Assembly: GCF_003668555.1 (NCBI RefSeq)
Contig: NZ_RCWN01000002.1
Coordinates: 1 to 64,000, forward strand
Length of the DNA stretch: 64,000 nucleotides
Reading direction: 5' to 3'
From: Notoacmeibacter ruber
GTDB lineage: Bacteria > Pseudomonadota > Alphaproteobacteria > Rhizobiales > Rhizobiaceae
Within the stretch, counting starts at the first letter, position 1; each line of letters begins with the position of its first letter. Made by a program: the position numbers and the translations under genes. Below the pieces are notes generated by a model. It ran no database searches, was not told the origin of the DNA, and saw only the letters and a program-made list of their open reading frames with translations. This document shows positions 19,926 through 64,000 of this stretch, one piece after another.

Positions 19926-21301
19926 CTTACGATGTCGCGATCATTGGCGCTGGCCCATCCGGCATGGCTGCGGCGGTCACACTGAGCGCCCTTAGTCTAT
20001 CGGTGATTGTCATTGACGAGCAGCCGGCTCCCGGCGGACAGATATGGCGGAGCATCGAGCGAAATCAGACCAGTTCGGTCTGGAGCGCTCTCGGAGCAGA
20101 CTATAGCAAGGGCTCGCAACTCGTAGAGTCGTTCAGAAACGCCCGAATTGACTATCTGCCGATGACGCAACTCTGGCAGATTGAGGACGGCTGGACGCTT
20201 TTCCTGACGGCTGACCATAAGGCGTGGTCGATCAACGCGAAGGTCCTGCTACTGGCGAACGGTGCACAGGAGCGTCCGGTGCCCTTTCCGGGCTGGACGC
20301 TGCCGGGCGTAATGGGCGTAGGCGCGGCCCAAATACTTCTCAAGTCGGGAAACATGCTGCCGAAGGGCAAGCTCTGGATAGCCGGGGCCGGTCCTCTGCC
20401 ACTTCTTTACGCAAAGCAGTTGATGGACCTTAACGTGGCGGTCGAGGGCTTTCTTGACACATCCGGACGGCCAGCCCTGTCCGCGCTGTCACATCTGCCT
20501 CGCGCTCTCAAGGACGTGAAGAGTCTCGCAAAGGGCCTGCGCTGGCGCCGTGAGGTCGCTGGAAAGACCAGGCTTGTCGGCCGCGTTGAGAATTTTCACG
20601 CCTCGGGCGAGCGGCGTCTGGAATTCGTCAATTGGACGACATGTTCGGGCGCGCAGCAGGCCGAGGCAGACATACTTCTTGTTCATGAAGGCGTGGTGCC
20701 GCGCATTCACGAAACACTCGCGCTCGGTTGCATTCACGACTGGGACAATCAACAGATGTGCATGACGCCGCGCCTTGATGAATGGCGGCAGACCAGCCGT
20801 GCAAATCTCTACGTGGCAGGAGATGCAGGCGGAATTGGTGGATGGCTGGCGGCCACCATAACAGGCGAGATCGCGGCGCTGGGTGCGGCGCGTCGTCTCG
20901 GCGTCACCGGCGATGCGCAGGCCATGGGTCGTCGCAAAAGGCTCGACGAGAGACTGCGGAAGGCACTTGCAATCCGCCCCTTTCTGGACGCGCTTTTTCT
21001 GCCACCTGCGCACAGAATTCCTGACAACGTGATCGTCTGCCGTTGCGAGGAAGTGACTGCGGGGACCGTCCGGGCCGCGGCACGAAACAGTGCGCCGGAT
21101 CCAAACGCAGTCAAGGCGGCGACGCGTTGCGGGATGGGACCCTGCCAAGGCCGGCAATGCGGCTACAGCGTTCAGAGGATCATCGCCGACGTGCACGAAG
21201 TGCCCGTTGAAGAGGTCGGCTTTTACAATATCCGCCCACCGCTCAAGCCTGTCACCCTCGGAGAAATCGCGTCGCTCGAGACTATGGAGAAGGCCGGATG
21301 A
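19922..21301 (+). CDS. FAD/NAD(P)-dependent oxidoreductase subunit with C-terminal 2Fe-2S domain
   Basis: 459 residues. The start overlaps the ferredoxin stop (ATGA). The N-terminus YDVAIIGAGPSGMAAAV binds FAD and a second nucleotide-binding segment follows (GKLWIAGAGPLPLLYA). The C-terminus carries a BFD-like Cys cluster, VCRCEEVT then RCGMGPCQGRQCG. This is the pattern of opine oxidase subunit A, HcnB and the matching hydroxyproline dehydrogenase subunit, in which electrons pass from an amino-acid-oxidising flavin through iron-sulphur centres to the respiratory chain. Confidence 0.85.
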   Translation: MTYDVAIIGAGPSGMAAAVTLSALSLSVIVIDEQPAPGGQIWRSIERNQTSSVWSALGADYSKGSQLVESFRNARIDYLPMTQLWQIEDGWTLFLTADHKAWSINAKVLLLANGAQERPVPFPGWTLPGVMGVGAAQILLKSGNMLPKGKLWIAGAGPLPLLYAKQLMDLNVAVEGFLDTSGRPALSALSHLPRALKDVKSLAKGLRWRREVAGKTRLVGRVENFHASGERRLEFVNWTTCSGAQQAEADILLVHEGVVPRIHETLALGCIHDWDNQQMCMTPRLDEWRQTSRANLYVAGDAGGIGGWLAATITGEIAALGAARRLGVTGDAQAMGRRKRLDERLRKALAIRPFLDALFLPPAHRIPDNVIVCRCEEVTAGTVRAAARNSAPDPNAVKAATRCGMGPCQGRQCGYSVQRIIADVHEVPVEEVGFYNIRPPLKPVTLGEIASLETMEKAG

Positions 21302-23267: not shown

Positions 23268-25139
23268 ATGGAGAACCTCACCTTATCGAAGATGGGCACT
23301 GGCTCGACAGCGCAAGGAACAGTCGCTTCCCCTGTGCTCTCGGTAAGAAATCTCAGCACCTCTTTCAGGGCCCGCGATAAATGGAAGACGGTTGTCCGCA
23401 ATGTCAGTTTCGACATTGGTTCGCAGGAGACGGTCGCAATCGTGGGTGAATCCGGTTCCGGAAAGAGCGTCACCTCCCTGTCGATCATGCGCCTGCTCTC
23501 GGAGCAGGCGAGCCGGATCGAAGGAGAGGTGAAACTCAACGGTCGCGATCTTCTCTCCCTGAGTGCAGAAGAAATGCGCAAGGTGCGCGGCAATGACATT
23601 GCCATGATCTTTCAGGAGCCGATGACCTCACTCAATCCCATCTTCCCGGTCGGCTTCCAGATCGCTGAGGCTTTGCGGGTGCATCAGGACATCTCAAAGG
23701 CCAACGCCAAAGCCGAAGTCATCCGGTTGCTCGAAAAGGTTCGGATTCCCAACGCCGATAAAAGGTTCGACGAATACCCGCATCAATTTTCCGGCGGGAT
23801 GCGTCAGCGAGTGATGATCGCGATGGCGCTTGCCTCCAAACCCAAGCTCCTGATTGCCGACGAACCGACGACTGCGCTGGACGTCACGATCCAAAGCGAA
23901 ATTCTCGACTTGATTAAGACACTGCAGGAAGAAGAAGGAATGTCGGTCCTGTTCATTACGCACGATATGGGCGTGGTGGCAGAAGTGGCGGACCGGACGA
24001 TTGTGATGTTCCGGGGCGATGCCGTCGAAATTGGTCAAACCGCGGATATCTTCAGAAACGGCCAGCACCCTTATACGCGCGGCTTGTTGGCCGCAGTGCC
24101 AGTGCTCGGTTCGATGAAGGGCAGCGATCTTCCGCGCCGGTTTCCCATGGTCGATTTGGAAACGGGTGAGAAAAAAGACCCGCCAAGAATTGCCGACACA
24201 GTGATCCGCGATGGAGCGCCCATTCTTGAAGTCAGGGACCTTACCACTCGCTTTCCTATACGCGGTGGTGCCTTCGGTCGCACAAGGGGCGTCGTTCATG
24301 CCGTCGAGAGTGTCTCCTTCGATCTTTATCCAGGCGAGACGCTTTCGATCGTCGGAGAATCCGGCTGCGGCAAATCGACCACGGGCCGATCCTTGACCCG
24401 TCTCATCACCCCACAACGCGGCGAGGTGACGCTCAATGGCTTTGAGGTGATGGAACTGAGCGGCTCGAAACTGCGGAAGATGCGTCAATCCATACAGATG
24501 ATCTTTCAGGATCCTTACGCTTCTCTCAATCCCAGGATGAGCATCGGCTCGGCGGTAATGGAACCCTTCATTCAACATCGGTTCGGCACAAAATCCGAGG
24601 CGCGCGATAAGGCAGCGGCCCTTTTGGACAAGGTGGGACTGTCGGCCGACATGATGCAGCGGTATCCGCATGAATTTTCCGGCGGCCAGCGGCAGAGGAT
24701 CGCGATCGCTCGAGCTCTGATGCTTGATCCGAAGGTGATCGTCGCGGATGAAGCCGTCTCCGCACTTGATGTCTCGATCCAGGCACAGGTGTGCAATCTT
24801 CTGCTGGAACTGCAGCAGAGCCTTAATCTCTCTTATCTGTTCATCTCCCATGACATGGCAGTGGTCGAACGGGTGAGCCATCGCGTGGCGGTCATGTACC
24901 TTGGTGAAATCGTCGAAATCGGCCCACGGGCGTCAGTGTTCAACAACCCTCAGCACCCTTATACCAAGAAGCTGATTTCTGCAGTTCCCGTCCCGGACCC
25001 GGGCCGTCGAAAGATCAAGCATGAAGTTGACGCTGGCGAATTGAAAAGTCCGATCCGACCGACTGATTACGTGCCACCCAAACGGGACTACGTCGAAGTT
25101 AAGCCTGGACATAAGGTCATGGTAGGCGAAGAATTTTGA
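23268..25139 (+). CDS. Fused double ABC ATPase, DppD-DppF type
   Basis: 623 residues holding two complete nucleotide-binding domains: Walker A GESGSGKS with signature FSGGMRQR in the first half, and GESGCGKS with FSGGQRQR in the second. Such fusions replace separate DppD and DppF subunits. ATG 23268 is four bases after the permease stop, with GCGAGGG upstream. It is the last gene of the uptake/oxidation operon. Confidence 0.92.
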
Positions 25140-38563: not shown

Positions 38564-40063
<1,500 letters not shown>

Positions 40064-50060: not shown

Positions 50061-50088
50061 AACACGCAGTGAGAAGAAGCCTTACGGT

Positions 50089-50112
50089 CGGACGAACAAA
50101 TACAGAAATGAA
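50089..50112 (-). promoter_or_regulatory. Overdrive-like T-DNA transfer enhancer
   Basis: On the minus strand this reads TTCATTTCTGTATTTG then TTCGTCCG. It agrees with 19 of 24 positions of the Ti overdrive consensus, whose core is CTGTPuTNTGTTTG (two agreeing positions are unspecified bases). It directly abuts the border-like repeat on the outer side and in the same orientation as in Ti plasmids. VirC1 and VirC2, which bind overdrive in Agrobacterium, are encoded at 60351-61669. Confidence 0.65.
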
Positions 50113-50137
50113 GGTGACGTCATCATATATCCTGACC
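50113..50137 (-). repeat. T-DNA border-like repeat (putative right border)
   Basis: The minus strand begins GGTCAGGATATATGATGA. The ten-base core CAGGATATAT is identical to Ti borders and to the second repeat at 52386-52410; overall 16 of 25 positions match the second repeat. A VirD2 nick would fall between 50134 and 50135 of the plus strand, putting the epimerase gene on the transferred strand. The overdrive next to it marks it as the right border. Confidence 0.7.
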
Positions 50138-50242
50138 GAGGAGGTCACGTGAAGGCATCATATGATGTCGTGGTCTTGGCCCCGGTGGCGCCAAATCGAA
50201 AGTCACATGATCGACCGGGGTGTCTTGGCAAAGGTCACATGA

Positions 50243-50284
50243 CCGGACCTCGGCCCGCATGGTTTTCGTGGATCACCGATCGTC
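50243..50284 (+). repeat. Dispersed repeat copy A
   Basis: CCGGACCTCGGCCCG (50243-50257) is identical to 52950-52964, followed by the diverged GTGGATCACCGATC at 50268-50281. Confidence 0.6.
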
Positions 50285-50408
50285 CTGCACAGCCCCTTTC
50301 GGCCACGTCATCCCGGAGACAAAATCAGGCAAATTTTGCGAATACGAGACAGCCCTTATCTCGCTTGCGAAGCGATGCAACATACCCCTCCCGCCAAGGA
50401 AGGCGCAG

Positions 50409-50447
50409 CCCGAAAAAGTAACCTCGCCTGTCTGGTGATCGCCGATC
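50409..50447 (+). repeat. Dispersed repeat copy B
   Basis: CCCGAAAAA and, farther on, GGTGATCGCCGATC (50434-50447) match copy C at 52961-52998. Confidence 0.6.
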
Positions 50448-50604
50448 ATCCCTTTCGGCCTCGCCGAAAACCTGCTCAAATTCGCTCATGGCATCATGAC
50501 AGCGTCAGCTGAAACCGGCGGCTGATCCTTCGGGGCTTGGCCAGGCGAATACGAGCTTTTTGGCCCCACTCCATACTGCACGAGAAATTCCCTCAGATCG
50601 GCGC

Positions 50605-50830
50605 AAGCTGATTGGCCGGCGCTGTCCGACCCGCGGAGACATAATTGCTCCGTCGTCCGCTCTCGTTCGAAGATAAAAGGCTGGTCTCCCCTCCTCCTTC
50701 TCGTCTTTCACTCCTCACCCTCATCCTCGCTCTTCTCCCACCTCACCATCTTCATTTCAAATCGAACTGCATCCCAACCCAACCCAACACCAACATCGCC
50801 ATCGCCATCGCCGCTTCGATCATTGGCAAG
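50605..50830 (+). promoter_or_regulatory. Eukaryote-style promoter and leader of the neuC-like gene
   Basis: In order: an inverted CCAAT box (ATTGG, 50611-50615); a TATA-like ATAAAAG (50673-50679); a long pyrimidine tract (about 50686-50760, e.g. CCCCTCCTCCTTCTCG); an A/C-rich leader (ATCCCAACCCAACCCAACAC); and a start context GCAAGATGG with A at -3 and G at +4. There is no purine-rich ribosome-binding site. This arrangement is typical of filamentous-fungal genes and not of the bacterial genes around it. Confidence 0.6.
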
Positions 50831-51985
50831 ATGGCATCCGACAATCTCCGCACCCTTGTGGTCACCGGCACCCGAGCCGATTGGAGCAAACTTCAACCCG
50901 TCTGCCGCGCATTCATTCGAGTTCTCGGTAAGATCGATGTCTTCATCACTGGAATGCATTTGGAGGAAGCATACGGCTACACGGCAAATCTTGTCCGACA
51001 ACTCGAAGGCGTCGATCAATTCCACATGCACAAGAACCAAACTCTTGGCCCCCACCAAACTGAGGTCATGGAAGAAACCATCAAGGGTCTCGCAAAGGTT
51101 TTGAGAGACAGGAAGATCACCGATGTTGTTGTCCACGGCGACCGTGTGGAGGCCTGCACCGCTGCCATGGTAGCGAGGCAGCATGGCATCCGCCTTCACC
51201 ATATCGAAGGCGGTGAACTTTCGGGCTCAATCGACGAGAGTTACCGTCACGCCGTCACTGCGTTCACGACCTACAGCTACGTCTGCTCTGCGTCTGCCAA
51301 AGACTTGGTTGTAAAGAACCTTGGGCAGCACCCACAGACAGTTTTTAACATCGGCTCTCCCGAAATGGATGCGCATGCTCGCGACTACGGCGTCAGCCTC
51401 AATGACGTGAAGCGAAAGTATGGAATTCCGTTTGCGGGAGAGTATGGCATCGTCTCGTTTCACTCTGTCACGTCCGAGCTTGACGGGATGCATGAGCAAG
51501 CTGCCTATCTCTTCGCGACTCTCGAGGAGTATGGGAAGAATTTCATCGTTATCATGCCAAACAACGACCCCGGTACCGACGCCATCCGCGACATCATCGG
51601 CAAAATTTTGGAGGGCAAGCGAAGTGACAGGTTCTTTCAGTCCGCCAACATCGATTTTGAGCACTTTTCCGTGCTTCAGAAGAACGCGAGTGTCTTCATC
51701 GGAAATAGCAGCGCAGGCGTTCGCGAAATGCCATTCCACGGCGTTGGCAGCATCAACGTTGGGTCGCGCCAGAACAATCGAGTGCCCGACATTCCGGCGA
51801 TTATCAACGCTCCGGCAAATGACGCTGCTGCACTGCTGAGGGCACTCAAGTCGTTTTGGGGGAAGAAATTTGCTCGAGACAAAACTTTTGGCGATGGAAC
51901 TGCAGAGGAAAAACTTGTTGGGGCTCTCAAGACCCCGGGACACTTTGATCGCTCGGTCCAGAAGAGCTTCTATCTTCCGGGATAA
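50831..51985 (+). CDS. NeuC-like UDP-N-acetylglucosamine 2-epimerase (hydrolysing) in the T-DNA-like region
   Basis: 384 residues. TLVVTGTRADWSKLQPV, VVHGDRVEACTAAMVA, HHIEGGELSGSIDESYRHAV, FNIGSPEMDAH and the late FIGNSSAGVREMPF match the NeuC branch, which hydrolyses UDP-GlcNAc to ManNAc plus UDP for sialic- or legionaminic-type sugars. No neuB or neuA homologue is nearby, so it stands alone. It has no Shine-Dalgarno sequence, an ideal Kozak context, and G+C and codon use unlike its neighbours. Expression in a eukaryotic recipient is therefore more plausible than in the bacterium. The start is fixed by the family N-terminus; an in-frame extension upstream is leader sequence. Confidence 0.85.
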   Translation: MASDNLRTLVVTGTRADWSKLQPVCRAFIRVLGKIDVFITGMHLEEAYGYTANLVRQLEGVDQFHMHKNQTLGPHQTEVMEETIKGLAKVLRDRKITDVVVHGDRVEACTAAMVARQHGIRLHHIEGGELSGSIDESYRHAVTAFTTYSYVCSASAKDLVVKNLGQHPQTVFNIGSPEMDAHARDYGVSLNDVKRKYGIPFAGEYGIVSFHSVTSELDGMHEQAAYLFATLEEYGKNFIVIMPNNDPGTDAIRDIIGKILEGKRSDRFFQSANIDFEHFSVLQKNASVFIGNSSAGVREMPFHGVGSINVGSRQNNRVPDIPAIINAPANDAAALLRALKSFWGKKFARDKTFGDGTAEEKLVGALKTPGHFDRSVQKSFYLPG

Positions 51986-52323
51986 GGACAGTTTCTATTT
52001 GTTCAGATGATGGTTTGATCCTTCTGTTTTCCCAATGCCGCCGGCCATCTCGCGGGCCAGAGGCATCACACTCGTTTGATTTGGATTTAGTTTTGCTGTT
52101 TTTGATTTTTGCTTTTATGCGACCTGCCGCGCTGGACGCAGCGTGGCACCACACTCTTTTAGCTTAGCTCAGAGCCTTCGGCCCGACATGATAGCAACCA
52201 ATCAACTATGTTCCTCCAATCCACTTTTGTGCATGTGGTCACGTGACTGTAAGCGCCCTTGGCGCCAAGAGCGGCGCGCAGCGCACCCATGAAGCGCAAT
52301 CAATTCTATCGAAAAATAAAAAT
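51986..52323. other. 3' flank of the neuC-like gene
   Basis: No gene. T-rich DNA follows the stop (about 51990-52120), a CACGTG palindrome lies at 52240-52245, and AATAAA at 52315-52320 could act as a polyadenylation signal just inside the second border. Confidence 0.45.
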
Positions 52324-52406
52324 AGGATATTGGGGTGTCGGCGCGGTTCGGGGGACCCCCCGCAGCGTAGCGGAGGGAGGGGAGCGACGACACCCCAATA
52401 TATCCT
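52324..52406. repeat. Inverted repeat containing a second, partial border-like copy
   Basis: AGGATATTGGGGTGTCG (52324-52340) is the complement of CGACACCCCAATATATCCT (52388-52406) apart from a two-base deletion. The left arm therefore reads as a border-like copy in the opposite orientation. The G/C-rich loop contains GGGGGACCCCC. Confidence 0.7.
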
Positions 52407-52410
52407 GCCA
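52386..52410 (-). repeat. T-DNA border-like repeat (putative left border)
   Basis: The minus strand reads TGGCAGGATATATTGGGGTG then TCGTC. It agrees with the Ti left border at 21 of 25 positions, including the first fifteen (TGGCAGGATATATTG). The predicted nick falls between 52407 and 52408. It is in the same orientation as the repeat at 50113-50137. Confidence 0.75.
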
Positions 52411-55888: not shown

Positions 55889-57175
55889 CTAGCTATGCCG
55901 GTTCCGCAGGGCTTCCAGCATCGGCATTACGGAAAACTGGCCTTGTTCGGCCTTGCGGGTCAATTCGCGCAGATAGCCGCCAGCACTGCGAATCTCGTCG
56001 GCCCGTTCCAGAATGGCGGCCAAGACAATGGCCGCGTGCTTTTCGCCCATCACCGACCGGGCCTGGCGCCATGCATCCGGTGAGATGCCCAGGAAACCAC
56101 GCACCAGCGCCGCGGTCCGGATGAACTCGGTCCAGTCTGTCATGGGGCTCGCTGCATAATCGCCAATCGACGGGCAGCGCGACAAGACGGCCGAAAGCGG
56201 CAGCGCTTGTATCTGATGGAGATCAGGGGTCGGCACTGTCACTCTATCCGATCCACCGTCCGTGCCAGACGAATAGGTTGAACCCTTCTGGACAGCCGCT
56301 GGAGCCATTACTTTTTCACGGCCGCTTTTTTCAAATAGGGATTCGGTTTTTGAATTATGATAGTGGCGCTCATTATGCTGTTCATTGGCGCTCATTTCTT
56401 TTTCTGTAAGACCATCCAGCCACGTTTGCTCCACTTCGGCCATAAGGCTTGCGAGCGCGCGCCGACGTGTTTCCACCTGATCAAAATCGGCGCGGCGCGG
56501 CAATGGCGCCGATAGCTTGGCGAAAGCCTCGGCAAGCCGGCTCCAGGGCCCTGCCCTGCCCTCCGACAACGCCAGAGTGATCAGGCTCGAGCAGTCACGA
56601 AGCATCAGGCTGACAGCCTCACGAGCGGCGCGAACCGCCAGAACCTGAGCGGTCGCTGCCTCGGCAGCCTCATATATGAGCCCTGCCCTTGCGGCGAATG
56701 GCGCCAGATCGAAACCGAAAGCATCCGAGCCGCCTTCCATTTTTCGCCGACGATAGCGTTTACCGTTCGGCGAATCCTTACGCAGGATCATTCCTGCACC
56801 GATCAGGCCGGCGAGGTGCCGCCGTAGCGTCGCTGGCGCCATGCCACCGCAACGCAATGACAATTCCCTGTTGGAAGGAAAGACGATCGTCGGCGCATCG
56901 CCATCGATCGTACGATCCGGGTGGAACGAGAGCAGCGCCGACAGCACTGTCAGTGTGCGATCGGACAATCCGAAGGCGCCTCTGGCTTCGGTGAGTGCCC
57001 GAAGCAGCGCAAATTTGTCGGCCCGCGACGGGTCATTACCGCTGGCGCCATCCTCCGAATGATCGTTTTGGGGCCTGGTCTTGCGTCTTGCGCGGTCGGC
57101 TGCGGCAGCATTGATCTGGGCAAGCGCCGCCGGTCCGCCGACACCAAACGGCGTCAGAGGTTCATAATTCGGCAT
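55889..57175 (-). CDS. repC: Plasmid replication initiator RepC
   Basis: 428 residues, close to the family's usual length. The N-terminus PLTPFGVGG, the winged-helix region FPSNRELSLRCGGMAPATLRR and the C-terminal LSRCPSIGDYA segment are typical of RepC in repABC replicons. RepC opens the origin, which in this family lies within repC. It is preceded by about 270 non-coding bases that hold the antisense RNA regulating it. Confidence 0.93.
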   Translation of the reverse strand: MPNYEPLTPFGVGGPAALAQINAAAADRARRKTRPQNDHSEDGASGNDPSRADKFALLRALTEARGAFGLSDRTLTVLSALLSFHPDRTIDGDAPTIVFPSNRELSLRCGGMAPATLRRHLAGLIGAGMILRKDSPNGKRYRRRKMEGGSDAFGFDLAPFAARAGLIYEAAEAATAQVLAVRAAREAVSLMLRDCSSLITLALSEGRAGPWSRLAEAFAKLSAPLPRRADFDQVETRRRALASLMAEVEQTWLDGLTEKEMSANEQHNERHYHNSKTESLFEKSGREKVMAPAAVQKGSTYSSGTDGGSDRVTVPTPDLHQIQALPLSAVLSRCPSIGDYAASPMTDWTEFIRTAALVRGFLGISPDAWRQARSVMGEKHAAIVLAAILERADEIRSAGGYLRELTRKAEQGQFSVMPMLEALRNRHS

Positions 57176-57271
57176 CGTATTTCATGCGCCCGGCAATCGG
57201 CACAAGCTGCCCTGCCCCACAGATTGTCATCTATGGGTTGACAGGAACGGCCGAACCTGATTCTTTCAGAA

Positions 57272-57325
57272 TGCTACTTCGAAGGTCCTCTGGAGCGGTT
57301 TCCGTTCCGGGGGGCTTTTGTTTTT
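57272..57325 (+). ncRNA. Counter-transcribed RNA of the repB-repC gap (incompatibility RNA)
   Basis: On the strand opposite repABC there is a TTGACA (57238-57243), a start near 57272, and a terminator formed by CCTCTGGA (57287-57294) pairing with TCCGGGGG (57306-57313), followed by GCTTTTGTTTTT. Length about 55 nt and location match the ctRNA of rhizobial repABC plasmids, which represses repC and sets incompatibility. The -10 box is poor. Confidence 0.6.
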
Positions 57326-57447
57326 GCCCCTGGCAATAGCGTTACCTTATGCGTTCGCGCATCCTTCCCTTTGTCCTGTGTCCCATCATCATCGTTCACT
57401 CGACACTGCCGCCAGACGCAAACACTTGGCGGCTTAAGAAAACGTCG

Positions 57448-58518
57448 TTACCGCCCTTCCCTCTCCTCACGGAACCGTGCCGCGAGCTCCGGCAGGCAGT
57501 CCGCCAGATAATCGGCGAAACCGCTGGCCGCCGCGCCCGGCAAGGCAAGGCGCGCGCTGTCGCCCTGCACAGAAAGCGTGCCGATCGCTACGCCATCAGA
57601 TCCGGCAATACGCCGCGTTTCGCTTTTTCGCCTGGATGCGTTGCCGCTGATCCGATCGGACAAAAGCGAAAAGCGCGCATCGCTATCGGCGGCAAGAAAG
57701 CGATCCCGGCCTATCTCGTCCTCGGCTTTCTCGACCGCGCCCTTTTTCTGGAGCAGCTCACCAAGTGCCAACCAGCGCGGCCGACCGACCTTCGGCGCGG
57801 GACCGATGGCTACCGCGAAGCGACGCGGCACCGTATTGGCCACGGAGAGAAGGCGGCTGATCTCGGTCTTATCGATTCCGAGCGCCTGCATCGCCGTGGC
57901 GCGGTCGAAACCGGCAGCGATGATCGCCTCCGCGAAAAAGGCCCTCTCGATGAAGGAGAGGTCGCGCCGTTCGGCATTTTCCTTGCCTTGCGCCAAAATG
58001 AGTTCCGCATCGGCCAACGGCTTGACCACGGCACGCACCGAAAGGCCGTGGCGCTGCGCGGCATGAACCCGGCGATGGCCGAAGGCGACCTGGTAACGGG
58101 ACGGCTTTTCGGGATGGGGTCGCAGAAGAACCGGAACCTGCTGGCCAACGCTCGCGATGGACGCGGCGAGGGCGTCGAAATCGGGATCGCCATCCTCTGC
58201 ATCGCTCATCCGGTCTCGCCAGGGCGAGGGATCGATCAATCCCGGATCGATTTCGTGAACCCGCTCGGCGCGCGCCAGCTCCTTTTCCAGCTCGTCCGCG
58301 CGCCGTGAAGCATCGGACAAACCGCCGAGCGATAGCCCCATGGCACGCACGGCCCCCGATGGAGCGCGCACTGGGCTGTTTCTCGCCTCAGGCTCTTCAG
58401 ACGATCGCGCCTTTGCCGGTTCCGCTGGCGTCGCGGCCGCCGAACCGCCAGTCTGATCATTCTGGTCCGGTCCTACCGTGCCGAACAGATGGGCCAGTTC
58501 CTTGCGCCGCTTGCTCAT
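57448..58518 (-). CDS. repB: Plasmid partition protein RepB (ParB family)
   Basis: 356 residues. The ParB/Spo0J nuclease-like domain shows YQVAFGHRRVHAAQRHGL and ILAQGKENAERRDLSFIERA, followed by the HTH (ATAMQALGIDKTEISRLL). RepB binds the parS palindromes at 58676 and 59944 and works with RepA in segregation. It starts 82 bases after the repA stop. Confidence 0.95.
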   Translation of the reverse strand: MSKRRKELAHLFGTVGPDQNDQTGGSAAATPAEPAKARSSEEPEARNSPVRAPSGAVRAMGLSLGGLSDASRRADELEKELARAERVHEIDPGLIDPSPWRDRMSDAEDGDPDFDALAASIASVGQQVPVLLRPHPEKPSRYQVAFGHRRVHAAQRHGLSVRAVVKPLADAELILAQGKENAERRDLSFIERAFFAEAIIAAGFDRATAMQALGIDKTEISRLLSVANTVPRRFAVAIGPAPKVGRPRWLALGELLQKKGAVEKAEDEIGRDRFLAADSDARFSLLSDRISGNASRRKSETRRIAGSDGVAIGTLSVQGDSARLALPGAAASGFADYLADCLPELAARFREEREGR

Positions 58519-58600
58519 GAGGAAAAGCTCCCGGATCTTTCATGGTGAATGAAGCCATGAGTCGGGCAGAGCGGGGACAGGCGTTTTTGCCTCGTCGCGT

Positions 58601-59884
58601 TCATCGGCTGGCGCCTCCGTCGCGAGACCGTTCAGTGCGGCCCCAGCCGGCGCGGATCAGTCCCTCGATCTCGCTGTTGACAGCTGTCAACGCCTCCATT
58701 GCCCGGTCGTATGTGGCGCGATTGAAGTTTTCCCGACCGACTTCGTAAAGTGTCTGCTTGGTCAGACCCGCATCGGAGATCGCCGTTGATTTGACCATTG
58801 GCGCAGTCAAGACACGCTCTCCCAGCTGGCTTCGCAGAAAGGCGGTGATCTGTGTCTGCGGCCCGTCATTGGGTTCATAACGGGTGACCAGATAGCGCAT
58901 GAAAGAGAAGTCCAGTCGCGCGCCAGCTTCCCGAACCACGGCCAACAGGTCGGAAGTCATCAGCAGGAACTGGCTCATCGAGGCAATGTCCAGCATTTGC
59001 GGATGAACGGTAACCATGACGCTGGTCGCCGCGCACAGCGCGCTCAGCGTCAGATAGCCGAGCTGCGGGGGGCAATCGAGGACGACCACGTCGTAATCAT
59101 CGGCCACCGTTTCCAGCGCCGATTGCAGACGCGCGAAGAAAAGCGGACCGCCTTCGCGCTCGCGCCCGCTGCTCAGATGGCGGGGCGTCGTGTGCTCAAA
59201 CTCCTGAAGTTCAAGATTGCCCGGCACCAGATCCAGCCCGTCGAAATAGGTTGGCCGGATGATATCCCGAAGCGGTCGACGCTCCTCGTCGTAACGGATT
59301 GCCCCGTAGAGCGTATCATTGCCCGAAAGATCGATCTCCGGCTGATAGCCGAACAGTGCACTCATCGACGCTTGCGGGTCGAGATCGACGGCAAGAACGC
59401 GATAGCCCTCCAGTGCCAGATATTGCGCCAGATGGGTCGATGTGGTCGTTTTCCCGGACCCGCCTTTGAAATTCGTAAGGGCGATCACCTGGAGTGGCTC
59501 ACCCGCCGCCGGATCGCGCCAGGGCAGATAGGTTCGCGCTTTCGGCCCGCCGCCCTCCGCCAGAAAACGGCGCATCGCATTGATGTCCGTCAGAGTATAG
59601 AGCCGGCGTCCACCAGGACCGGTTTCCGGCTGTGGTCCTTCGCCATTGATGGATAGTTGCCGCAGATAGGAATCGGATACGCCGATCAGACGCGCCGCTT
59701 CGCCGCTTGTGAACGCGCGCAGCGTCTTCTGACTTGTCGGCGGAAAAAGGCGATGACGCATCATCGATAGCTGCTCCGAAAGCAGAGCCGCATCTGCCGC
59801 GATCTGCTCATCGGCCGGGGGCAGGGGAGAGGCCTTATCGATCTCCCCATCGCCCTCGAAAGCGGTTTGCGCGGTCTGCGCCAT
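58601..59884 (-). CDS. repA: Plasmid partition ATPase RepA (ParA family)
   Basis: 427 residues. An N-terminal HTH (TSGEAARLIGVSDSYLRQLS) is followed by the deviant Walker A FKGGSGKTT and VVVLDCPPQLGYL. RepA segregates the plasmid with RepB and autoregulates the operon. GAGGGAAG precedes the ATG at 59884. One parS palindrome lies inside its 3' part and another just upstream. Confidence 0.96.
   Translation of the reverse strand: MAQTAQTAFEGDGEIDKASPLPPADEQIAADAALLSEQLSMMRHRLFPPTSQKTLRAFTSGEAARLIGVSDSYLRQLSINGEGPQPETGPGGRRLYTLTDINAMRRFLAEGGGPKARTYLPWRDPAAGEPLQVIALTNFKGGSGKTTTSTHLAQYLALEGYRVLAVDLDPQASMSALFGYQPEIDLSGNDTLYGAIRYDEERRPLRDIIRPTYFDGLDLVPGNLELQEFEHTTPRHLSSGREREGGPLFFARLQSALETVADDYDVVVLDCPPQLGYLTLSALCAATSVMVTVHPQMLDIASMSQFLLMTSDLLAVVREAGARLDFSFMRYLVTRYEPNDGPQTQITAFLRSQLGERVLTAPMVKSTAISDAGLTKQTLYEVGRENFNRATYDRAMEALTAVNSEIEGLIRAGWGRTERSRDGGASR
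58676..58691. promoter_or_regulatory. parS centromere palindrome inside repA
   Basis: GTTGACAGCTGTCAAC, a perfect 16-base palindrome fitting the repABC parS consensus. Confidence 0.88.
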
Positions 59885-60350: not shown

Positions 60351-60974
60351 TCAAGGCAATTGTTTCGCTCGCTTGGCTTCCGCCCGAAAAAAAGCGGCGA
60401 GAGCCGTGCTTGCCAATTTTCGGCCGAAGGCGCGGGTGCTTTCCAGCCCGAGTGGATCGAAATGCGCGCGCGCGACCGATACCAGCGCAACGGGCATCAT
60501 CCGCGATGTCTGGATGAGCGCGCCCTGATCGCTCAGTCGCACGGTCTCGTAGCTGGAAGGGCATTTTTTATAGCCACCGCTTTGCAGCAGGGCCTCGTAA
60601 TCGTCGAGAGCCCTGCGCAGGATCATTTGAAGCGCTTTCGACGGCCGATACTGACGGCACAGCATATCGAAGCTCGGCGAGACACCCTTGGCTGGCAATA
60701 CCGCCGACACGAAAACCTGCACCTTGGGTTCGGGCTCGGCATCCTCGATCGGTCGCAGCATTGCGGGCGCCGGCACGGCGGCTTGCAGGGGAGGGGGCGT
60801 TGGAGCGTCTGTCGGCGGCGTTTCAACCCTTTGCCGTCCCGGCTCACCTTGCTGCCTGGCGGAGGGGGTGGAGCTATGGCGCGGCGGGAGCGAGTTGGCC
60901 GACTGCGAATCGTTGGCGGTGGCCTTGGTGCGGGCTTCGGTCACTGAAAGGCGGGGTTTTCGAATCGCCATCAT
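60351..60974 (-). CDS. virC2: VirC2-like overdrive-binding protein
   Basis: 207 residues. The first 90 are Pro/Ser/Gln-rich and disordered; the C-terminal 110 resemble the ribbon-helix-helix fold of VirC2 (FVSAVLPAKGVSPSFDMLCRQ, YRPSKALQMILRRALDDYE). In Agrobacterium, VirC2 binds overdrive with VirC1 and boosts T-strand formation. Its ATG overlaps the virC1 stop by one base (TAATG), so the two are cotranslated. Confidence 0.85.
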   Translation of the reverse strand: MMAIRKPRLSVTEARTKATANDSQSANSLPPRHSSTPSARQQGEPGRQRVETPPTDAPTPPPLQAAVPAPAMLRPIEDAEPEPKVQVFVSAVLPAKGVSPSFDMLCRQYRPSKALQMILRRALDDYEALLQSGGYKKCPSSYETVRLSDQGALIQTSRMMPVALVSVARAHFDPLGLESTRAFGRKLASTALAAFFRAEAKRAKQLP

Positions 60975-61669
60975 TATCCCTCCAGCGCGTGCTCAACGAA
61001 GTTGCGCATCTGGCCAAGTTCTTCCATCGCCGCCTGGTGATTACGCTGGTGCAGCCGCATCGCCGGATTGGCGAGCATGTGCTGCAGGGTCATATGCAAC
61101 ATGCCGCGCTCCTTCATCGCAGCGTATGCGTCGCGCTCATGCATGGAGGGATCGAAGAGCGGCAGTGCGCTCAGCATGTCCATGACGGATTTCTGCGAGA
61201 CGGTCATCCGCCCGACCGGCACACGCTGGCGAAGGACCGCCGTCGGCACCGACAGATTTTCACCCATCAGCAATTCGATAATGTAGCGATATGTGGCCAG
61301 CGCCTCGTCCATATCGAGCGGCGTCAGCATGGTTGGTACGATCAGAAAATCCGACGAAGCTATGATCGTGTTGTTCAGTTCGCTGGAGCCGCCATGGGTA
61401 TCGGCGAGCGCATAGTCAAAGCCGCGCGACTCCGCCTCCTCATAGGCCTGCTCCAGAAGCTCCATCTCGTCGGCGACGAAAACGTCGCACTGTTCGTCCC
61501 AGCTCTCATTCGCCAGCGCGTTTTCGCGCCAGCGGATAAGCGGGCGGTTTTCGTCGGCTTCGAGAAGGGCAACGGTCTTCGCTCCGGCAGCGAGGGCGGA
61601 ACACAGACCCATCAGGGCTGTGGTCTTGCCCGCACCGCCCTTGAAGGAGCAGCAGGTCACAAGTTTCAC
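60974..61669 (-). CDS. virC1: VirC1-like ParA-family ATPase
   Basis: 231 residues, the same length as Agrobacterium VirC1. Deviant Walker A is [16 protein letters not shown] (K15), then [49 protein letters not shown] and [17 protein letters not shown], all hallmark VirC1 segments. VirC1 binds overdrive and brings relaxosomes to the cell pole and type IV secretion channel. It is divergent from virD1 across about 300 A+T-rich bases. Confidence 0.93.
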
Positions 61670-61971
61670 GACGCAATTCCTTTATGGCAATCATCAGGAT
61701 AAAAAGGCTTTTGTAAAAAAGTACGTTTGTAATACTGTTTTGATTTATGATGAAAACATGGCAGACGAAGCAGAAATAGGTTCAATATTTCGATACGGAC
61801 CCTTACGTTTTGTGATCGACGATCCAGGCGAATTCTCTTGCGCCGCCCGGAAAACGGATCAATATAGCTTTGTATTCATAAGCCAAGCCGGCGTTTTTTT
61901 GCTGGTTTACGACTATTATTTATTTTACAGCGCGCACGTTTTTCTCGTTTTTTGACCGCGCCCTTTATTTG
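61670..61971. promoter_or_regulatory. virC-virD divergent promoter and possible oriT
   Basis: A+T-rich, no convincing gene. CAGGATA at 61695-61701 (complement TATCCTG) equals the nick core of T-borders and related relaxase sites, and could be the conjugative nic site of this plasmid. TTTGTAATACTG at about 61727 recalls part of the Ros repressor box of the Agrobacterium virC-virD promoter, but is weak evidence. Confidence 0.4.
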
Positions 61972-62469
61972 ATGAGTTTTGCCATGAACGCCAACGGGCA
62001 CGACGTTTCCACCGATCTTTTGTTCTCAACACCGGCCTCCACCGGCAACGCCGCGCCGAAAGTCGCCGGCTCCGGAACCGACCCCAACGCCTATAAGGTT
62101 GTGAGCGTGCGACTGCGCGCGGCCGAATATGAATGTCTGTCGCTTCAGGCAAAGGCACTCGGCCTGTCGAACAATATGGCGATGCGCGTTGCCGCAAGGC
62201 GGATCGGCGGCTTTCTCGAAACGGACGAACAGACACGCCAATTGCTGCAGGATATCACCGACCAGATCGGCGACATCGCCCGCGCTCTGAATGACATCGA
62301 CAATGTTTGTCGCAAACACGGCAAAACTGATCTGAACCGCCTGGCGACGCTTAGGGCCGCTTTCGGCCACGAATTCGTGCAGCTCGATGCGCTGCTCCGC
62401 TCAATTCTGAACCTGTCGCGCCGCCGCGTGGATGGCCGATTGATGCTGCAAAAGGCGATGCTCGGATGA
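61972..62469 (+). CDS. virD1: VirD1-like relaxase accessory protein
   Basis: 165 residues from ATG 61972 (ATG 61984 is an alternative; neither has a strong ribosome-binding site). The segment YKVVSVRLRAAEYECLSLQ then NNMAMRVAARRIGGFLE and the C-terminal ILNLSRRRVDGRLMLQ match VirD1, the small DNA-binding partner that lets VirD2 nick supercoiled border DNA. It begins the virD1-virD2 operon. Confidence 0.9.
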   Translation: MSFAMNANGHDVSTDLLFSTPASTGNAAPKVAGSGTDPNAYKVVSVRLRAAEYECLSLQAKALGLSNNMAMRVAARRIGGFLETDEQTRQLLQDITDQIGDIARALNDIDNVCRKHGKTDLNRLATLRAAFGHEFVQLDALLRSILNLSRRRVDGRLMLQKAMLG

Positions 62470-62519: not shown

Positions 62520-64000
62520 ATGCCGCAAGCGATCGTAAGGGTCGTGCCCAATGGAGGGGCGAAGACGGCAGGGCAAATCAAAGACCAATGGAACTATCTG
62601 ACGCAGTATGGCGCAGTCGATCTACAGTGCTCGGATCGCCATCAGGGCGTGACCGTTCCGCGCAACCGCTTTGCCGCTGACGCGGCGAGCTGGGAAGCGC
62701 AGACAGGCAACGAGCATGATCCGCATCGCGCGGGGCAGGATCTGACGACCCATCTTGTCGTCAGTTTCGCCCCACCCGATGACCCGGACGATCCGGTTCA
62801 GATGGAAATCTATCGCCAGCGCGCATTCGCCGCGGCGAGGGGCTGGGCGAACCGTATGTTCGGTCCCCAGCAGGACAGCCACGCCAATGAATACGACTAT
62901 CGGACCGCCTTTCACACAAACAAGCCACACCCGCACCTTCATATAACCGTCAATAGGCGCTCGACCCACGGCGACTGGCTGAAGATCTCGAAGCGGGATG
63001 CATGGTTCAATTACGATAACATGCGGAAGGTTCTGGTCGACGCGGCCTTTGATTGCGGGATCGAGTTGGAAGCGACCTCGCGGGCCGAACGCGGCATCCA
63101 TGAACGGCCGATGACTTATGCCGAATATCGCCGTCAGGAGCGGACGATCATGCAGCGGCCTATTACGTTGGAAGAGCACAACCGCCTCGAAGCCGAACGC
63201 CGGGCAGCCCAAGGGGATGCCCGCAACAGGGTCGGCATGGATCCGGGTGACGAAGACACACTCGAGGACGCCATGCAGGATGCCGGCGCCTACACACCCC
63301 TCCCAGACGTGAACGAGAATGGTGGAGAAGGGCCTGCCAATGCGCCGCCACGACGCGGCCGGACCGACGAACGCACCGCCGAGGATCTCCAGCGCGGTTG
63401 TACACCTCCTCCAGCCCATGAAGCAGACCAGGATGACGGCGGCGGACTTCCGCCTGGCGACGATCACGATGACGGCCATAACGCTGGAGGTGGCGGGTCC
63501 GACGGCAGCAGCGACAATGACGATCACGGCAATCCGCCACCGCCCCGTCCGCGGCGGCGCAGACGCCCCAGCTTCGACAGCCTCTACAACGTCACCGACG
63601 AGGAAGATGGCAATGATGATCTCGACGTCGGCGGTTCCGAGATGTCGCAGCAAAGAGAGAGCGTAAACGACGGCGACCGCAGACAGCAGGAGCGTTCTGT
63701 GAGCCGGAATGCAGAGCCAGCAACCGGTCCATCCTGGCAGTTTCGAGACACCGAAGCCCGTCGCAAGCGCCGGGCGGCAGAGAATGAAGATAAAAATCAG
63801 CCTAAAGCCAAGCGCGTGCGCACTGGCGGCCGGGTCGAAGCGGCCGAGGCTGGCCCCAGCAACGCACCGGTCAGTGATCCGCCCGCACCGGATAGTCATT
63901 CCGTCCCGCAGACGGAAACCGGCGGCGCGCAACGGAAGCGTGGCAAAGGAATTGGCGACGGCAACGCGTCAGGCCATCCCGTAGAGATGAGCGCTGCAGA
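62520..64000 (+). CDS. virD2: VirD2-like relaxase with bipartite nuclear localisation signal (3' end outside window)
   Basis: At least 493 residues from ATG 62520 (GGGAGG 62504-62509). The relaxase domain, about residues 1-210, has the catalytic tyrosine Y26 (QWNYLTQYG), THLVVSFAPP and the metal histidines PHPHLHITVNRR (H137, H139, H141), then the VirD2 signature ATSRAERGIHERPMTYAEY. The tail is acidic and Gly/Asp-rich, then basic: RPRRRRR near residue 343 and a bipartite RRKRR-x10-KAKRVR at residues 414-434. Agrobacterium VirD2 uses such a C-terminal signal to guide the T-strand into the nucleus. The frame is still open at 64000. Confidence 0.93.
   Translation, partial: MPQAIVRVVPNGGAKTAGQIKDQWNYLTQYGAVDLQCSDRHQGVTVPRNRFAADAASWEAQTGNEHDPHRAGQDLTTHLVVSFAPPDDPDDPVQMEIYRQRAFAAARGWANRMFGPQQDSHANEYDYRTAFHTNKPHPHLHITVNRRSTHGDWLKISKRDAWFNYDNMRKVLVDAAFDCGIELEATSRAERGIHERPMTYAEYRRQERTIMQRPITLEEHNRLEAERRAAQGDARNRVGMDPGDEDTLEDAMQDAGAYTPLPDVNENGGEGPANAPPRRGRTDERTAEDLQRGCTPPPAHEADQDDGGGLPPGDDHDDGHNAGGGGSDGSSDNDDHGNPPPPRPRRRRRPSFDSLYNVTDEEDGNDDLDVGGSEMSQQRESVNDGDRRQQERSVSRNAEPATGPSWQFRDTEARRKRRAAENEDKNQPKAKRVRTGGRVEAAEAGPSNAPVSDPPAPDSHSVPQTETGGAQRKRGKGIGDGNASGHPVEMSAA
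63759..63821 (+). other. Coding segment for the bipartite nuclear localisation signal of VirD2
   Basis: It encodes two basic clusters, RRKRR and KAKRVR, separated by exactly ten residues, the classical bipartite import-signal spacing. Confidence 0.65.

Follow-up and report, generated by a model that had tools for sequence, protein, structure and literature searches.

The first 64,000 positions of contig C2 (154,122 bp), one of the four contigs of the 3.25-Mb Notoacmeibacter ruber genome, form the stretch analysed here (the window). They carry a unit that resembles the transferred DNA (T-DNA) of tumour-inducing (Ti) plasmids, in which two same-orientation border repeats enclose a single recognised gene, a NeuC-like epimerase, on a replicon that also holds vir genes. 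The genus belongs, in the NCBI taxonomy, to the Notoacmeibacteraceae, Hyphomicrobiales. Small-subunit rRNA was looked for in the genome and gave no match, with a control that responded in only 9 of 14 genomes. The right border (RB), the left border (LB) and the polarity of the T-strand are named after the Ti convention, in which the T-strand is here the plus strand and the RB its left end. The unit contains the following features.

50113..50137, minus strand: RB, with the core CAGGATATAT on the minus strand
50135..52407, plus strand: predicted T-strand of 2,273 nt, between the two predicted nicks
50145..50242, unstranded: three E-box-like motifs (TCACRTGA), at 50145, 50203 and 50235, with another at 52239, by pattern count
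50670..50680, plus strand: TATA-like motif AAGATAAAAGG, by motif reading; the same motif occurs in the sister plasmid described below
50683..50826, plus strand: pyrimidine-rich 5' leader of eukaryotic type; the peak 90-nt pyrimidine window precedes the ATG
50831..51985, plus strand: hydrolysing UDP-N-acetylglucosamine (UDP-GlcNAc) 2-epimerase, NeuC-like, 384 aa (PF02350, 158.8 bits; 4zht, E 7e-40)
52315..52320, plus strand: AATAAA, resembling a poly(A) signal, by motif reading
52324..52407, plus strand: LB hairpin, formed by the LB and a copy of the border end in inverse orientation
52386..52410, minus strand: LB, identical to the Ti LB at 21 of 25 positions

How good are these borders? Both repeats contain ATATATCCTG in the same orientation (50125-50134 and 52398-52407), and the plus-strand nicks predicted from them, 50134/50135 at the RB and 52407/52408 at the LB, lie 2,273 bp apart. 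Contigs C2, C3 (62,661 bp) and C4 (14,467 bp) were scanned with Ti border 25-mers. The RB (17/25) and the LB (21/25) are the sole sites on C2 reaching 17/25; C3 has two 17/25 sites, both devoid of the core, and C4 has none. The pattern KNCAGGATATAT is found twice in the whole genome, exclusively at the two borders, and its reversed control is found nowhere. When C2 was simulated 200 times with a first-order Markov model, no run reached 21/25 (the best gave 19) and no run placed two exact cores on the same strand within 5 kb of each other; on average a run had 0.05 exact cores. A sequence-only reading had described two direct repeats, one matching the Ti LB at 21 of 25 positions, around some 2.27 kb with one gene. 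The scan and the genome-wide count confirm the repeats, the segment holds one recognised gene, and the simulations put the pair above chance. A same-orientation pair of about 25 bp carrying CAGGATATAT is what is expected of a T-DNA. A transposon was considered and set aside, the epimerase being the sole profiled gene between the borders and no transposase being noticed there (smaller open reading frames (ORFs) lay outside the profiling). Single exact border-like cores also occur in other members of the family, at L122:1669, L123:18900, L125:2428 and L128:18874, three of them of the TGGCAGGATATATGCAAAGGTA type; the stretches around them have VirC1/VirD1-like genes, and the cores are possibly origins of transfer (oriT).

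The same ends recur in a second Notoacmeibacter genome (G141). Its plasmid contig, C11, has a vir region syntenic with that of the window, at 82-89% nucleotide identity across large blocks, and borders at 20756-20780 and 23455-23479 that are identical to those of the window at 24 of 25 (LB) and 22 of 25 (RB) positions. The presence of the border pair in an independent assembly argues against an assembly chimera, which was rejected on this ground. A promoter block (C2:50303-50803) is 80% identical in the two plasmids and the T-DNA ends 75-76%; the epimerase coding region finds no match in G141:C11 by nucleotide comparison. In its place the sister T-DNA carries two divergent genes, a HAD hydrolase (PF08282, 43 bits) and a second gene. 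The first has a 43-nt intron, GTAAGT...CTGAC...TAG, joining exon one to exon two, and the second a 46-nt intron, GTAAGT...CTGAC...AAAG. Since three divides neither 43 nor 46, the exons come into frame only after splicing, and both reading frames are predicted to be open once spliced. A third Notoacmeibacter genome (G048) lacks the DNA of the LB end, and the promoter DNA (50081-50840) has no match in PLSDB. Two further border-like sites were discarded on reading: one of two cores in G048, the other being unread, falls within an acyl-CoA dehydrogenase-like gene, and a near-match at C11:203969 of G141 within an ABC-permease-like gene. Elsewhere on the replicon, the two Notoacmeibacter plasmids agree at 93-94% over C2:1-15476 and 146440-154122. 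This is far above the likeness of their T-DNAs and suggests recent exchange.

The LB hairpin is also shared. Its DNA fold has a z of -4.8 in the window and -5.0 in G141 (L134:754-852), and the RB has none. The LB stretches of the Ti plasmid pTiL51_94 and of Agrobacterium vitis, whose related units are described below, give no significant fold; that of pTiB230_85 forms a strong hairpin (z -7.3), with the border not engaged in that manner. By analogy with conjugative termination, the hairpin may aid VirD2 in ending the T-strand.

What is the gene between the borders? The automatic ORF starts at TTG 50645; ATG 50831, in the context CAAGATGG, is judged the better start. In a PDB search, the epimerase domain of human GNE came first (4zht), followed by two hydrolysing NeuC-type entries, and the GNE alignment spans 379 residues, with the VHGDR and HIEGGE motifs included. 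PF02350 and these conserved motifs place the protein among the hydrolysing UDP-GlcNAc 2-epimerases. It shares them with NeuC and GNE but sits on a separate branch: in a midpoint-rooted tree with long branches, built from 55 of 120 listed relatives, its clade has four other members, one from A. rhizogenes and three from metagenomes, and is separated from the 50 others with a branch support of 100/100. No relative exceeds 46% identity among the best 80 matches in genome_contigs, nor 38% in viral_contigs, and the A. rhizogenes protein (P0002) finds no match in PLSDB or in 16 genomes of one genus.

The signals around the gene look like those of a eukaryotic gene. The leader region contains a 90-nt window with a pyrimidine fraction of 0.81, the maximum of the plasmid, reached by 2 of 154,033 plus-strand windows and by none on the minus strand. 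Of the plasmid's six TCACRTGA sites, four are inside the T-DNA; in G141 its T-DNA has four of ten. Codon use points the same way: CTG serves for 2 of 26 leucines in the epimerase (p 9e-5) and for 5 of 58 in the three T-DNA genes (Fisher p 1e-8), against 491 of 1,118 in 29 author-chosen plasmid genes. Fungal genes commonly have CT-rich leaders and short GTAAGT introns with CTGAC ahead of the 3' splice site, and the leader, the introns of the sister genes and the codons look fungal. Together with the TATA-like motif, these features suggest a payload built for eukaryotic expression.

The genes that would process and export the unit lie on the same replicon. Those within the window, with the replication genes, are as follows.

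55889..59884, minus strand: repC, repB and repA (replication, partition), by Pfam
60351..60974, minus strand: virC2 (PF07181, 148.8 bits)
60974..61669, minus strand: virC1 (PF07015, 391.4 bits)
61969..62469, plus strand: virD1 (PF07328, 126.2 bits)
62520..64000, continuing to C2:64298, plus strand: virD2 relaxase (PF03432, 44.1 bits), with a bipartite nuclear localisation signal (NLS)-like motif at 63759

The four vir genes named in the sequence-only reading all match their Pfam families above cut-off, virD2 as a member of the relaxase family, and a pattern search finds two bipartite NLS-like motifs in VirD2. VirC1 reaches at least 240 bits in 11 of 297 family genomes. Beyond the window, family profiles recognise VirD4 (460 bits), VirB11, VirB10 and VirB8, as well as VirB6, VirB5, VirB4, a transglycosylase, VirB9, VirB3 and VirB2, giving ten virB genes (B1-B6, B8-B11) and virD4. 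A search for virB, virD4 and virE genes thus yielded a VirB/VirD4 system and a VirE3-like protein (C2:66599-69088, 28.4 bits against a cut-off of 20.3); for VirE2 there is a weak match, at C2:69638-72046. Three of the four proteins made up of this VirE2-like protein and its three relatives match the VirE2 family, with a best E of 7e-6. A search of about 5.8 billion proteins (7,988 candidates scored) gave four matches including itself, one of them from Notoacmeibacter sp. MSK16QG-6. Among 397 genomes of the order, the profile of the VirE2-like protein matches a single one, that of the window (G141 was probably outside the draw). Matches fall on 21 PLSDB records, all Agrobacterium or Rhizobium; in the rows shown they have 26-31% identity over at most a third of the protein, many being called 'virA/G regulated protein'. 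A PDB profile search with the protein gave no match at E 1. One relative, P0123 (51% identity), lies on a 135374-bp contig (ena), perhaps another such plasmid. Part of the VirE3-like ORF (C2:68255-68665) aligns with the C-terminal portion of the VirE2-like profile at E 4e-12, so the two proteins may be related. Several proteins downstream of virD2 end in R/S-rich tails, such as RSRSRQSS, and are candidate exported helpers by this feature. Vir-region proteins with R/S-rich C-termini and no Pfam match are encoded at C2:64900-66477, 69106-69708 and 74214-75995. A second VirB4-like type IV secretion gene is present on another contig of the genome (G000:C3:7011-7580).

How would the bacterium benefit from exporting an epimerase? 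A cluster at C2:129-143 kb encodes a MurR/RpiR-type regulator, sugar ATP-binding cassette (ABC) transporters, a NanK-like kinase, NagA (253 bits, cut-off 225.65), NanE (271 bits, cut-off 189) and a NagB-like deaminase (C2:136473-137276). Judged by these assignments, the cluster would take N-acetylmannosamine (ManNAc) to fructose-6-phosphate, and by predicted function C2 holds genes for using the product of the T-DNA enzyme, as opine plasmids do. Among the three Notoacmeibacter genomes NanE is found in that of the window (G000) only, on C2. Dak1, in turn, is found in G141 only. There, a dihydroxyacetone-kinase (DhaK) operon occupies C11 165.6-173.0 kb, with 73-85% protein identity to A. vitis.

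The HAD gene of the sister unit leads to described plasmids. The protein has nine matches including itself in about 5.8 billion proteins (877 candidates), three of them named Agrobacterium or Rhizobium; the family occurs in 1 of 394 drawn GTDB-family genomes, which is G141, and the HAD protein P0127 has no counterpart in 39 genomes of the genus of G017. In PLSDB it is carried by six plasmids: pTi6.2, pTiL51_94, pTiB230_85 and three A. vitis plasmids. Five were read with their annotation; for NZ_CP081839 the rows of the search were the sole source, and the plasmid of A. deltaense that encodes P0126 lay outside the set. In the three Ti plasmids the HAD gene lies between borders of its own.

L154:6381-9021: mini T-DNA of pTiL51_94, 2,641 bp
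L148:8383-11077: mini T-DNA of pTiB230_85, 2,695 bp
L150:8396-13131: mini T-DNA of pTi6.2, 4,736 bp, with annotated insertion sequence transposases inside

Introns of 43 nt in G141, 52 nt in A. vitis and 68 nt in pTiB230_85 occupy one and the same site of the HAD gene. In pTiB230_85 the intron is plant-like and AT-rich (GC 0.26), with a promoter GC of 0.38; intron GC is 0.40-0.46 in G141 and A. vitis, and promoter GC 0.57 in the window and 0.53 in A. vitis. The protein encoded divergently in the pTi mini T-DNA shows no significant similarity to the second gene of G141. These type VIII Ti plasmids resemble the sister plasmid in having a homologous HAD gene between borders, with a DhaK operon alongside, but differ in the plant-type promoter and intron (pTiB230_85) and in having been described as single-T-DNA plasmids (pTi6.2): PMC10410297 gives pTi6.2 one T-DNA, with les, 4', 6b and c. 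Because of that account, the HAD mini T-DNA appears to be unrecognised there; the words 'haloacid', 'dihydroxyacetone' and 'intron' are absent from its main text.

The A. vitis plasmids are closer in style. pRvVAR0630c (NZ_AP023276.1, L151/L152; 96 kb), from Allorhizobium/Agrobacterium vitis VAR06-30, a strain called nonpathogenic in PMC10811719, shares with the Notoacmeibacter plasmids repABC, a set of annotated vir genes that looks complete (virB, virC1, virC2, virD1, a relaxase and virD4), a fungal-style HAD gene with a CT-rich leader and intron, a DhaK operon and an LB-like border at 39859 (19/25, core 8/10). It differs in its payload, HAD and not an epimerase, and in having no clear RB, the best core in the border scan being 7/10. 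The same HAD/DhaK/virD4 stretch is present on pAvF25e (strain F2/5, 98 kb; L155). In all six PLSDB records a DhaK gene lies about 0.6-2.7 kb from the HAD gene, with sugar ABC genes alongside in the five that were read, so that, with G141, HAD and a DhaK operon go together on seven of seven plasmids examined. From this linkage we infer a triose product for the HAD payload.

Two payloads with two matching operons are therefore read as an opine-type pairing with plain-sugar products. Since G141 obeys this rule too, its HAD phosphatase going with a DhaK operon, the payload appears to be an exchangeable cassette for making a sugar, each version with a catabolic operon to match. The T-DNA-like unit itself is real and extends the kind to a new genus, with a payload that can apparently be swapped and that probably makes sugar. 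We regard as likely a T-DNA with opine logic, exported to a eukaryotic, probably fungal, cell that makes ManNAc for the bacterium to eat. In such a scheme VirD1/VirD2 would nick both borders and the VirB/VirD4 system of C2 would export the T-DNA into the recipient. Once in the nucleus, the payload would be expressed (after splicing in the sister unit), and the epimerase would turn host UDP-GlcNAc, the chitin precursor, into UDP and ManNAc. ManNAc would then reach the bacterium, act as an opine and be used via the C2 catabolic genes. The earlier suggestion that the plasmid can send a NeuC-like gene into eukaryotic cells is in this way supported in silico, by the border pair, the VirB/VirD4 system, the sister plasmid and the ManNAc cluster.

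Several observations weigh against this scheme. As simulated C2 sequences average 1.3 sites of at least 17/25, the RB score of 17/25 is at chance level and not significant by itself; what speaks for the RB is that its core is exact, that it is paired and that it is conserved. A gapless scan with the overdrive consensus did not rank the RB, where a GT-rich flank is present. The epimerase gene is intronless, and four fungal proteins fall outside its clade, among the 50 others with bacterial NeuC-like proteins. 'Fungal' refers to the style of leader, introns and codons, and in A. vitis the leader is matched by 95 opposite-strand windows of its plasmid, so that it is no extreme there. VirB7 was not identified among the C2 vir genes, virA and virG were not noticed on C2 (no dedicated search was made), and the VirE2-like protein scores 20.4-20.6 bits, below the Pfam cut-off of 27, with a structure model of such low confidence (pLDDT, the predicted local distance difference test, 36.6) that it was not used. 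On the catabolic side, the kinase has N-acetylmannosamine kinase (NanK) as its best match at 260 bits, below the curated cut-off of 283; the T-DNA and the ManNAc cluster are 77 kb apart, or 61 kb in the opposite direction should C2 be circular; and the DhaK operon of G141 does not adjoin its T-DNA. Co-occurrence by itself is weak evidence, since 21 of 199 family genomes, G000 among them, have NanE above its cut-off and DhaK relatives occur on 665 PLSDB records, 39 of them at 60% identity or more.

Could the T-DNA be real and its purpose different? The recipient might be another eukaryote (a microalga, an oomycete or a sponge cell), or the payload might be non-nutritional, draining UDP-GlcNAc or changing the host surface. 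The stylistic nature of the fungal signs leaves room for other hosts, as the distance of the ManNAc cluster (at least 61 kb) and the spread of NanE do for other functions; however, short introns with GTAAGT and CTGAC and CT-rich leaders are fungal habits, and two payloads match two catabolic operons within one genus, HAD and DhaK keeping company in all six PLSDB records. Such a T-DNA is unlikely. A bacterial mobilisation unit, whose repeats would be oriT-like relaxase sites serving movement between bacteria only, is very unlikely. VirD2 is a relaxase, the LB at the foot of a hairpin resembles a relaxase termination site, and in G082, G162, G224 and G247 the plasmid stretches contain a lone exact border-like core close to virC1/virD1-like genes, in the manner of an oriT. 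On C2, however, no border-like site lies between virC1 and virD1, where an oriT would be sought (the best reaches 14/25), and the paired sites enclose a gene with a eukaryotic-type leader, in a family of units whose sister member needs splicing. That a eukaryotic-style gene was captured between fortuitous repeats and has lost its function is more improbable still, for all that the RB alone is at chance level: G141 keeps the ends and the promoter around an exchanged coding region, its frames are open after splicing, and an alike design recurs on Ti and A. vitis plasmids.

The opine-type reading invites comparison with the Ti and root-inducing (Ri) plasmids. The likeness extends to 25-bp same-orientation borders with CAGGATATAT, VirC1/C2, VirD1/D2, VirB/D4, a VirE3-like protein, and a payload with eukaryotic signals and matching plasmid catabolic genes. 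The Notoacmeibacter unit differs in its bearer, a genus of the Notoacmeibacteraceae, in its single-enzyme 2.3-kb payload, which has no oncogenes and a predicted plain sugar in place of a classical opine, in its fungal rather than plant style, in the introns of the sister payload and in the LB hairpin. Natural T-DNA transfer is known between agrobacteria and plants, and fungal transformation as a laboratory use. According to PMC4958254, fungi are among the cells transformed by Agrobacterium, and Rhizobium etli p42a carries a functional vir set. Among the open-licence PMC papers listed, going by titles and the starts of abstracts, none reports a T-DNA in Notoacmeibacter or one with these payloads, and searches of that literature for T-DNA with dihydroxyacetone and opine, or for N-acetylmannosamine with opine, gave no paper.

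On balance we lean towards a wider class of natural fungal engineers, bacteria whose vir plasmids insert single-enzyme, intron-ready cassettes so that fungal cells secrete a plain sugar (ManNAc or a triose) for the donor to eat, and with a plant-style version unrecognised on Ti plasmids. If the reading is true, described Ti plasmids would gain an apparently unrecognised T-DNA and the opine concept would be widened to plain sugars; a T-DNA of this kind, borne by a marine genus and combining genes in fungal style with a nutrient operon to match, would mean that bacteria engineer fungi in nature and would offer a directly testable route of gene transfer from bacterium to fungus.

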